The position numbers were made by a program, and so were the translations under genes. DNA of 64,000 nt from an uncultured Nioella sp. GTDB lineage: Bacteria > Pseudomonadota > Alphaproteobacteria > Rhodobacterales > Rhodobacteraceae. The DNA lies in contig CANMJH010000001.1 of NCBI GenBank assembly GCA_947498125.1, forward strand, positions 930,001 through 994,000, read 5' to 3'. The number at the start of each line of letters is the position of its first letter. Within the stretch, counting starts at the first letter, position 1. Shown here in pieces: positions 42,542 to 44,532 of the stretch. The notes under the pieces are model-generated. The model had not been told where the DNA came from. It was given only the letters and a program-made list of their open reading frames with translations, and did no database searches.

Positions 42542-42560
42542 TTAAGTGTACTTTTTACAC
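42542..42560. promoter_or_regulatory. Curli-locus motif, copy 1
   Basis: TTAAGTGTACTTTTTACAC contains the inverted repeat GTGTA-CTTTT-TACAC (42546-42560). It matches 17 of 19 bases with TTAAATGTAATTTTTACAC at 43899-43917, ahead of the second curlin gene. It lies about 395 bp upstream of the first curlin ATG, after the MATE gene. A shared operator for one regulator is the simplest reading; the regulator is unknown. Confidence 0.65.
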
Positions 42561-42566
42561 GTAAAT

Positions 42567-42775
42567 GGATGTTATCAGCCTGTCATCACTCATACCGGTT
42601 GTTATCGCCAAATAGTTTTTCGGAGCGCGCGCGTCACTCATGGCGGTTACCCCAAGGGAAGTGTGTGTAGAGCGTTTTTATCTAATTTATTGTAATAAAA
42701 CAAAATAAACACCTTTGTTATCAGATAACATTCAATAGTTAGTGTTGGATATCCGATTACACAACGGATGTTATC
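42567..42775. promoter_or_regulatory. GTTATC-motif cluster upstream of the major curlin gene
   Basis: Four GTTATC elements at 42571, 42601, 42715 and 42768. Two lie in an identical GGATGTTATCA (42567-42577 and 42764-42774), and one forms the perfect palindrome GTTATCAGATAAC (42715-42727). The region is AT-rich and gene-free from 42428 to 42954. Such iterated sites suggest binding of a regulator along the curli promoter. Confidence 0.6.
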
Positions 42776-42954
42776 ACCTTTCTTTCCACCGATATTGTCT
42801 GACGAGGGTGTTTGGGGCCAAGTGTTGGTCATCGGCAAACGCAACACCATGCAAACGCCGCACCAAACCCGAAACGCGAAACCCGCAACATCATTATTTA
42901 AACCACTCTAAAACGTCCCAACCGGGACAATTTCAAAACCAAAGGACTTTTAAA

Positions 42955-43395
42955 ATGACCATCAAATCTGCACTCAAAATCGCTGCCGTCGCTCTTACCG
43001 CAACTCTGCCCCTCGCTGGTGCAGCCATGGCCGGTGGCTCTTATGTAAACGTAGAACAGTATGGCGTTGGTAACGCAGCTGGCGGCGCACAGGCCGGTTT
43101 CTTTAACGGTATGACAGTCTATCAGGACGGCTGGAGCAACACTGCGATTGCCACTCAGGACGGCAACTGGAACCAGACTGTTATCGGCCAGACCGGTTGG
43201 GACAACTCTGCCAGCTCCTCCACATTCGGTTCGGGCAATGTCACTGGCATCGCTCAGATGGGCGGCAACAACTCTGCTGACACGACACAGTGGGGCAACG
43301 GCAACGCAGTTGGCGTGATCCAGGTTGGCAACGGCAACTCTGCCTCTTCGACCCAGGTTGGTACCGGCAACGTTGCGGTTATCGTCCAGAACTAA
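42955..43395 (+). CDS. Curlin-like amyloid subunit (CsgA type)
   Basis: A 146-residue secreted protein with signal peptide SALKIAAVALTATLPLAGAA and mature start near AMAGG. It then has repeats of the curlin form Q-x-G-x-x-N: VEQYGVGNAA, YQDGWSNTA, TQDGNWNQT, GQTGWDNSA, AQMGGNNSA, TQWGNGNAV, IQVGNGNSA and TQVGTGNVA, ending in VIVQN. Rich in Gly, Asn, Gln and Ser, and without Cys. AAAGGA precedes ATG 42955. Such subunits polymerise outside the cell into amyloid fibres. The curli secretion genes csgG, csgE and csgF are not in the window. Confidence 0.88.
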   Translation: MTIKSALKIAAVALTATLPLAGAAMAGGSYVNVEQYGVGNAAGGAQAGFFNGMTVYQDGWSNTAIATQDGNWNQTVIGQTGWDNSASSSTFGSGNVTGIAQMGGNNSADTTQWGNGNAVGVIQVGNGNSASSTQVGTGNVAVIVQN

Positions 43396-43411
43396 GACCC
43401 ACAGCAAAAGA

Positions 43412-43429
43412 CCCCCCGGGCGCGGGGGG
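43412..43429 (+). other. G/C hairpin between curlin and csgH-like gene
   Basis: CCCCCC, loop GGGCGC, GGGGGG: a strong 6-bp stem 16 bp after the curlin stop, with no T-run. It may attenuate read-through so that much more major curlin than CsgH-like protein is made. Confidence 0.55.
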
Positions 43430-43501
43430 CCCCTCCCTCCCTACTCCGTCTTCCAAGCCACCTGCGCCCGGCCCTAATTTTAGACCCAAAGGATACCTCC
43501 C

Positions 43502-43891
43502 ATGACTGCCTCTATCGCCCCAAAAACCCGCCGGATCCTGCTGCCCGCAATGATCCTCGCCGGTGCCGGCCTGGCAGCTGCTTGTAACAGCACAACGGCC
43601 AGCCCGGTTTCCACAACTGCCCCTTTTGCCTGTGACATCGCTGTTGAAGAAGATGGTCGCATGGTGAATTTCCAAGGCCGCGTCCAAGCTTCCGAAGCGA
43701 TCTCGGGTTCGTATAATCTGCACCTTTCTGGGCGCGGCACGAACATTCGCCAAGGCGGCCCGTTTTCAGCCCGCGCCGGTGAGATTGTCACTCTTGGCCA
43801 GTCCCGCCTTTCCGGTGCCCCCGAAAGCTTTGACGCTGAATTGTCCATCACCGTTGACGGAACTGAATTTTCCTGCCCCGTCAGCATTTAA
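43502..43891 (+). CDS. csgH: CsgH-like curli chaperone/assembly inhibitor
   Basis: The 129-residue exported protein starts with a signal (RRILLPAMILAGAGLAAAC), which could be a weak lipobox. The short beta-sandwich-like domain includes PFACDIAVEEDGRMVNFQGR, SGSYNLHLSGRGTNIRQGG, FSARAGEIVTLGQS and a final SCPVSI. This matches the alphaproteobacterial CsgH/CsgC-like proteins, which hold curlins soluble in the periplasm. Two Cys (FACDI and FSCPV) may be paired. AAGGATACCTCCC precedes the ATG. Identification rests on motif pattern and position between two curlin genes. Confidence 0.75.
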   Translation: MTASIAPKTRRILLPAMILAGAGLAAACNSTTASPVSTTAPFACDIAVEEDGRMVNFQGRVQASEAISGSYNLHLSGRGTNIRQGGPFSARAGEIVTLGQSRLSGAPESFDAELSITVDGTEFSCPVSI

Positions 43892-43898
43892 TACTTGC

Positions 43899-43917
43899 TT
43901 AAATGTAATTTTTACAC
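43899..43917. promoter_or_regulatory. Curli-locus motif, copy 2
   Basis: TTAAATGTAATTTTTACAC, with the perfect palindrome TGTAA-TTT-TTACA at 43904-43916, lies 7 bp after the csgH-like stop and about 40 bp before the second curlin ATG. It matches copy 1 (42542-42560) at 17 of 19 bases, suggesting a separate but co-regulated promoter. Confidence 0.65.
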
Positions 43918-43955
43918 TAACTTAAGAATCATATTAAAACCAAAGGAATAGACCC

Positions 43956-44351
43956 ATGATCCGCAAGACACTTACCGCCGCAGCACTCGTAGCATCCACC
44001 CTCGCCGGCACGGCCGCAATGGCCGGAGGCACAATCAGCTTCGAAGTAAACCCAACAAACGCAGACGAAGCCGCAGCAATCCAGTTTGGCCTCGCCCTTT
44101 ACCAGATCGCCAATGGCGCAGATCCCGCACATGTTTACCAGAACGGTAACGGCAATGGCGCAGGGATCGGTCAGACCGGTGGCGGCAATAACGGCGTCAT
44201 TCATCAGGAAGGCAATGGCCACCACGGCACGCTGAGCCAGAACGGCTGCGACAGCTACGGTATCTTCCAGTTCGGCAATGGCGCAAACGCCAACGTCGCT
44301 CAGGGCAATGGCTGCCAGACTGGCCTGCTCTTCCAGGTTGGCCTCGACTAA
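43956..44351 (+). CDS. Second curlin-like protein (CsgB/minor-subunit candidate)
   Basis: The 131-residue secreted protein has signal IRKTLTAAALVASTLAGTAA and then an unusual helix-like N domain (PTNADEAAAIQFGLALYQIA). Five curlin-type repeats follow: YQNGNGNGAG, GQTGGGNNGV, HQEGNGHHGT, SQNGCDSYGI and FQFGNGANANV. Two Cys occur in the repeats (QNGC and GNGC), rare for curlins. The extra domain and position fit a nucleator or minor subunit, but that is inference. AAAGGAATAG precedes the ATG; a strong terminator follows. Confidence 0.82.
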   Translation: MIRKTLTAAALVASTLAGTAAMAGGTISFEVNPTNADEAAAIQFGLALYQIANGADPAHVYQNGNGNGAGIGQTGGGNNGVIHQEGNGHHGTLSQNGCDSYGIFQFGNGANANVAQGNGCQTGLLFQVGLD

Positions 44352-44447: not shown

Positions 44448-44532
44448 TGGTACCCGAGGTCGGACTCGAACCGACAAGCCTTGCGGCGGGGGATTTTGAA
44501 TCCCCTGCGTCTACCAATTCCGCCACTCGGGC
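44448..44532 (-). tRNA. tRNA-Leu (anticodon CAA)
   Basis: An 85-nt class II tRNA on the minus strand: acceptor GCCCGAG pairs with CTCGGGT, CCA is encoded at its 3' end (44448-44450), the D arm contains GAATTGGTAGACGC, a long variable arm is present, and the T arm contains GGTTCGAGTCC. The anticodon loop TTCAAAA gives CAA, which reads UUG codons. It lies between the curli locus and the housekeeping block. Confidence 0.96.

Follow-up and report, generated by a model that had tools for sequence, protein, structure and literature searches.

The window analysed here, a 64,000-nucleotide stretch of the genome of an uncultured Nioella species (G000), contains a short curli locus on its forward strand. 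It comprises csgA for a first curlin of 146 amino acids (42955..43395; Pfam Curlin_rpt, 1.6e-13), csgH for a CsgC-like curli chaperone (43502..43891; Pfam CsgH, 5.5e-13), and a csgA2 or csgB-like gene for a second curlin of 131 amino acids (43956..44351; Pfam Curlin_rpt, 2.2e-4). The association of curlin-repeat proteins with CsgH (PF07012, PF21112) identifies it as a curli locus. Despite the two curlins and CsgH, the 99.99%-complete genome has no match to the CsgG exporter (PF03783), which fits the published alphaproteobacterial picture, as in many of these bacteria only curlin subunits, plus csgH, are identifiable (Dueholm et al. 2012, PMC3521004). According to the same authors csgD is absent from Alphaproteobacteria (PMC3521004), and a preliminary description of this DNA was right in seeing something other than a CsgD arrangement here. 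A tRNA-Leu (caa) gene at 44448-44532 lies directly 3' of the locus and also adjoins it in the congener G001.

Two 19-bp elements on the forward strand accompany these genes and are predicted operators of the NrtR/AraR type: site 1, TTAAGTGTACTTTTTACAC (42542-42560, core GTGTACTTTTTACAC at 42546-42560), and site 2, TTAAATGTAATTTTTACAC (43899-43917, core ATGTAATTTTTACAC at 43903-43917). Both equal GTGT-N7-ACAC or are one base off. The preliminary description had reported that these two 19-mers agree in 17 of 19 bases and contain an inverted repeat of TGTA/TACA, and this reads in the sequence exactly as stated. It had also placed the motif before each curlin unit; both sites do precede curlins, but site 1 is located 409 bp 5' of the csgA start codon (42955), outside the proximal promoter. 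Site 2 follows the csgH stop codon (43891) and is 53 bp 5' of the second curlin gene (43956). With up to one mismatch, TGTA-N5-TACA occurs in the window at chance level (5 observed vs 5.7 expected), sites 1 and 2 being its only perfect copies, and the signal is carried by the longer palindrome TAAGTGT-N7-ACACTTA. A pooled pattern with up to three mismatches retrieves just these two sites from the 64 kb, with 0 matches in 100 shuffles. In a blind test, a 21-bp weight matrix trained on 44 sites at genes other than those for curli scored site 1 at 24.5 (rank 1) and site 2 at 22.9 (rank 2) in the window, compared with 6.3 for the next-best position and at most 12 in 20 random 64-kb windows; the information content of the matrix core is inflated because the training sites were gathered by exact GTGTN7ACAC matches, the curli sites being unused in training. 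Within the window, the two curli sites again took ranks 1 and 2 when the matrix was built exclusively from 33 sites in other genomes.

Conservation was assessed in the four species in which this curli locus is present and its upstream DNA readable, namely G000, G001, Alterinioella (G233), and the metagenome-assembled genome (MAG) CG17. In this order, site 1 lies at -409, -403, -400, and -377 relative to csgA and site 2 at -53, -51, -79, and -50 relative to csgA2, and the orthologous sites have at most one mismatch in eight core bases in all four species, with one mismatch in each curli site of G001. For the five sites of G001 and G233, 0.07-1.4% of shuffled upstream regions matched equally well in the same search range, and for csgA2 of CG17 none did; the csgA site of CG17 falls outside the range used. 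Lack of conservation at orthologous curli promoters, the outcome that the preliminary description had named as fatal to its reading, did not occur, and the sites are kept in three further species. Non-conservation at the G001 promoters was considered and rejected, as a one-mismatch scan at the orthologous positions finds both sites. Alterinioella contains an extra csgA-csgH pair (L091), and each curlin has its own operator; the site of the further csgA copy is at -75.

The regulon was compiled from pattern searches in which only near-exact sites were examined, and the same operator precedes more than 10 other genes or operons in G000 and its relatives. In G000, the motif lies a short distance 5' of genes for small secreted proteins and of others. 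These include an operon for I78-type protease inhibitors and genes whose products are a mannan-binding-lectin-like protein, a VHL-beta protein, a Sel1-repeat protein, members of a secreted family that share a conserved SYSVxAGG stretch, and the 44-aa MFCTAH peptide, the last encoded beside an FNR-type regulator gene. Another copy precedes a LacI-type gene (L067). The motif recurs before orthologues of many such targets in G001 and in the genera represented by G211 and G233. The form AGTGTAN5TACAC is present in both congeners (5 and 3 matches) and absent from all 23 other family genomes tested. Altogether, the operator is found before many non-curli genes in five genomes, including the NrtR-positive G211 and G061, neither of which has a curlin repeat detectable by Pfam; G211 holds a contig-edge piece of the second curlin.

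Some of these genes deserve a separate mention. At L042:4815-6188, four small secreted-protein genes stand behind one operator, three of them with I78 matches, and the I78 operator is kept in G001. The MFCTAH peptide is a conserved product of 44-46 amino acids with the pattern MFCTAH...FTD[WF]ASI (or AAI), found beside the FNR-type regulator gene (L043:5220-5354 on the reverse strand, L079, L100, and L116), and its promoter spacer holds one of the strongest operator copies. Members of the SYSVxAGG secreted family start with MRTL or MRTI and occur in multiple copies (L068, L073, L095, L119, and L105), several of them preceded by the operator; the one member tested has no Pfam match.

The candidate regulator is a 220-aa protein with a Nudix domain and an NrtR-type winged helix, encoded at G000:C1:187069-187728, outside the window and about 785 kb from the curli locus. 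Its gene has the motif in its own upstream region and is divergent from a gene for a TIR-WD40 protein. The N-terminal domain matches NUDIX (PF00293, 6.7e-21) and the C-terminal domain matches NrtR_WHD over the curated cut-off (PF21906, 1.1e-20) and AraR_C (2.1e-7), while the best PDB match is AraR (5bs6, 1.2e-38). Orthologues (E<1e-40) are present in 6 of 296 family genomes, each of which has exactly one NrtR_WHD protein. The ratio of AGTGTN7ACAC to a reversed-pattern control is 90:83 in these six genomes and 93:298 in 30 genomes that lack the regulator; the corresponding Fisher p of ~1e-10 is optimistic because the genomes are related and both strands of each palindrome were counted as independent. 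Within individual genomes the picture varies, as the motif is rarer than the control genome-wide in G061 (13 vs 32), and almost no motif is present in G075, whose protein is 66% identical with the same recognition helix and whose regulator gene has 137 bp of readable upstream DNA.

Putative autoregulatory sites were surveyed at nine Rhodobacterales loci (Nioella species, Alterinioella, Pseudohalocynthiibacter, and two named to family level). At eight of the nine, the motif both precedes the regulator gene and is present on the side of the TIR gene, and only a one-mismatch copy was found in the MAG locus L144. Apart from this MAG, the auto-sites have positions of about -45 to -98 relative to the regulator gene, with two sites before L146. 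More distant homologues from a gammaproteobacterial MAG (55% identical, two sites) and a Bacteroidia MAG (43% identical) have the motif just upstream as well. The recognition helix DKRNFRK is identical in all six orthologues including that of G000, and the Nudix signature GX5EX7REUXEEXGU, as read from the alignment, is intact in G000 and the orthologues. An impaired signature is typical of characterised NrtR/AraR members, although it does not define them.

The closest parallel is provided by AraR of Bacteroides thetaiotaomicron, whose co-crystal with DNA contains a 27-mer operator that includes GTGTTACTTTTACAC (PMC4666351 Table 2) and in which Asp178, Lys179, Arg180, Asn181, Arg183, and Lys184 contact DNA and are said to define GTGT (PMC4666351). 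AraR (PDB 5bs6, 5dd4, 5ddg, 5deq) and the candidate share a Nudix-like domain with a winged helix, the D-K-R-N-x-R-K helix, and a GTGT-N7-ACAC operator. The identity of this helix, combined with the same operator, pairs regulator and motif independently of genome statistics. The two differ in that the ligand of AraR is L-arabinose, its Nudix box is impaired, and it targets arabinose genes (PMC4666351), whereas the candidate has an intact Nudix box and its predicted targets are secreted proteins, curlins, and the TIR-WD40 gene. NrtR of Shewanella, Mycobacterium, and others (PDB 3gz5/3gz6; PMC6800001) also shares the two-domain architecture and autoregulation, but NrtR operators differ, e.g. GTTTTCGA-N7-TCGAAAAC in M. 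smegmatis, and NrtR targets are NAD genes (PMC6800001). Unlike classical NrtR, the candidate has no NAD-metabolism gene among the near-exact-site targets that were read, and control of NAD biosynthesis or salvage genes, by which NrtR proper is recognised, is not seen among them. On the basis of the Nudix domain, the NrtR winged helix, the contact residues and operator of AraR, and the auto-operator, the predicted protein can be assigned to the NrtR/AraR family.

The TIR-WD40 protein (L064:3298-5625 and orthologues) is ~770 aa long, and its gene is oriented divergently from that of the regulator wherever the divergent flank of a Rhodobacterales locus could be read; the contig of G075 ends at the regulator. 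The TIR domains keep the cysteine-x-x-glutamate segment in which TIR NADases have their catalytic glutamate, with the conserved glutamate in SPACRQE, and the gene product is probably NAD-cutting. A PADLOC search gave weak TIR-domain matches for the protein, and a PDB sequence search with the TIR domain gave no match. In a published survey, Nudix regulators of NAD/ADP-ribose conflict systems are predicted to sense molecules of the ADP-ribose type (PMC9503650). The Nudix-HTH conflict regulators described there likewise combine a Nudix transcription factor with a neighbouring NAD-related effector, which in this case is TIR-WD40. However, the regulon predicted here reaches far past the neighbouring locus, to curlins and secreted proteins.

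The placement of the operators relative to promoters offers an indication of how they may act. A possible core promoter of the second curlin gene (43895..43923, forward strand) consists of TTGCTT (43895-43900), a 17-bp spacer that is site 2 itself (43901-43917), and TAACTT (43918-43923); these hexamers are weak, agreeing with consensus in 3/6 positions each, and are absent from a consensus promoter scan. In the Alterinioella orthologues, which read TTGACT-17-TAAAGT and TTGACT-17-TAAATT, the palindrome is exactly the 17-bp spacer, and it likewise occupies the -35/-10 spacer in the MFCTAH promoters of G000, G001, and G233. Flanking promoter hexamers are only weakly enriched when all 49 sites are averaged, so that only some targets give a clear case of a steric block, and no convincing -35/-10 elements surround site 1. 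Since the palindrome fills the 17-bp spacer at several promoters, best in Alterinioella, repression is likely, and it is also pointed to by the known members of the family, as characterised NrtR/AraR proteins are repressors (PMC6800001, PMC4666351). In characterised NrtR members, the repressor is released by ADP-ribose (PMC6800001).

We therefore consider it very likely that both curli sites are operators of the product of G000:C1:187069-187728, a Nudix-related repressor of the NrtR/AraR family with a broad regulon. The computations show the motif and its conservation, the set of genes that it precedes, its occurrence together with a single regulator gene, and a DNA-contacting helix identical to that of AraR; binding to the sites, repression, and induction by a ligand are what we infer from the sequences. 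A regulator dimer would read GTGT and ACAC one helical turn apart via the DKRNFRK helix and, when bound in the -35/-10 spacer at the second curlin gene and several other targets, would obstruct RNA polymerase. The regulator would be released by a ligand of its Nudix domain, and the curlins would be induced together with small secreted proteins, among them the I78-type inhibitors, a cysteine-containing secreted family, the mannan-binding-like lectin, and the VHL-beta protein. Expression of the 44-46-aa peptide, of the divergently oriented TIR-WD40 gene, and of the regulator would rise as well. As for the ligand, our guess is ADP-ribose or a related compound that the TIR protein produces; a ligand of this type is made plausible by the intact Nudix box together with the C-x-x-E segment of the TIR domain. 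It is possible, though on balance doubtful, that these elements form a complete circuit from TIR to transcription. In such a circuit, triggered TIR-WD40 would generate an ADP-ribose-type product from NAD, and this product would release the neighbouring Nudix repressor. Curli amyloid, secreted protease inhibitors, and further proteins that are secreted or at the surface would then be switched on, until hydrolysis of the signal by the intact Nudix domain ended the response.

In Enterobacteriaceae, CsgD is the activator of the csgBAC operon. A transcription factor would govern curlins in both settings, but here the GTGT-N7-ACAC palindrome is used and is not confined to curli genes, and a CsgD-type regulator is not implicated. 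The preliminary description had nevertheless proposed a dedicated curli regulator. That the motif behaves as a regulator's operator and is conserved at curli promoters agrees with the proposal; dedication to curli does not hold, with more than 10 other genes or operons sharing the operator. Such a substitute for CsgD, reading the 19-bp motif at curli promoters only, would be consistent with the position and conservation of both sites before curlin genes and with a class in which csgD is not expected (PMC3521004), but because of the regulon, which includes non-curli genes in G211 and G061, a dedicated curli system is already refuted, and we regard it as very improbable. Even less weight, amounting to practically none, falls on the view that the two copies are alike by chance or through duplication of a curlin promoter. 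The two curlin genes are indeed paralogous, but the flanks of the sites and their positions (-409 vs -53) differ, shuffling yields nothing comparable, each site is independently conserved across the four species, and this view is already refuted by the matrix trained on unrelated genes, which finds both.

The identity and the action of the reader can also be questioned. Short palindromes with GTGT half-sites serve several regulator families, and with a motif copy upstream of the LacI-type gene L067, another DNA-binding protein could be the real reader of a similar palindrome, leaving the Nudix link indirect. This is quite improbable, since the motif co-occurs with one gene that is present in 6 of 296 genomes, that gene has auto-sites, each of the six genomes encodes a single NrtR_WHD protein, and the recognition helix equals that of AraR, which binds an operator with identical half-sites at the same spacing. 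Readers of the LacI/GalR and CRP types were set aside after the Nudix gene with its auto-sites was found. It is also conceivable, although unlikely, that the same NrtR/AraR-type protein serves as an activator, or that site 1 is an enhancer-like or looping site acting with site 2 or with the GTTATC boxes that follow it. The far upstream position of site 1 (about -400) at a conserved distance speaks for this, as does the first GTTATC box, whose position 24-26 bp past the start of the site 1 core holds in all four species, while the palindrome inside the -35/-10 spacer at csgA2 of Alterinioella and other targets and the repression exerted by characterised NrtR/AraR proteins (PMC6800001, PMC4666351) speak against it.

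If the two curli sites are operators of a Nudix-related repressor, then alphaproteobacterial curli without CsgD now have a named candidate regulator, an operator, and a regulon, in marine bacteria that are relatives of cultured Nioella, Alterinioella, and Pseudohalocynthiibacter strains. The NrtR family, with its roles in NAD and pentose metabolism, would come to include the control of amyloid and secreted proteins as well. That the TIR gene would share this control suggests a path by which NAD-derived signals could reach the cell surface. Our literature search found no paper connecting NrtR with curli regulation.

Finally, we note an array of GTTATC boxes upstream of csgA (42571..42775, forward strand), with boxes at 42571 and 42601, the palindrome GTTATCAGATAAC at 42717-42729, and a further box at 42770. 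In G001, the order of the array is the same and its spacing near-identical, and similar arrays occur in G233 and CG17. G026, a genome that has no orthologue of the Nudix regulator, likewise has a GTTATC box near -177 of csgA. A genome-wide regulon of GTTATCNGATAAC was rejected, and as this element shows no enrichment in G000, it looks curli-local; the sole exact G000 copy of the full GTTATC palindrome is at curli. If a curli-dedicated regulator exists, the array is a better candidate for its site than the 19-bp motif.
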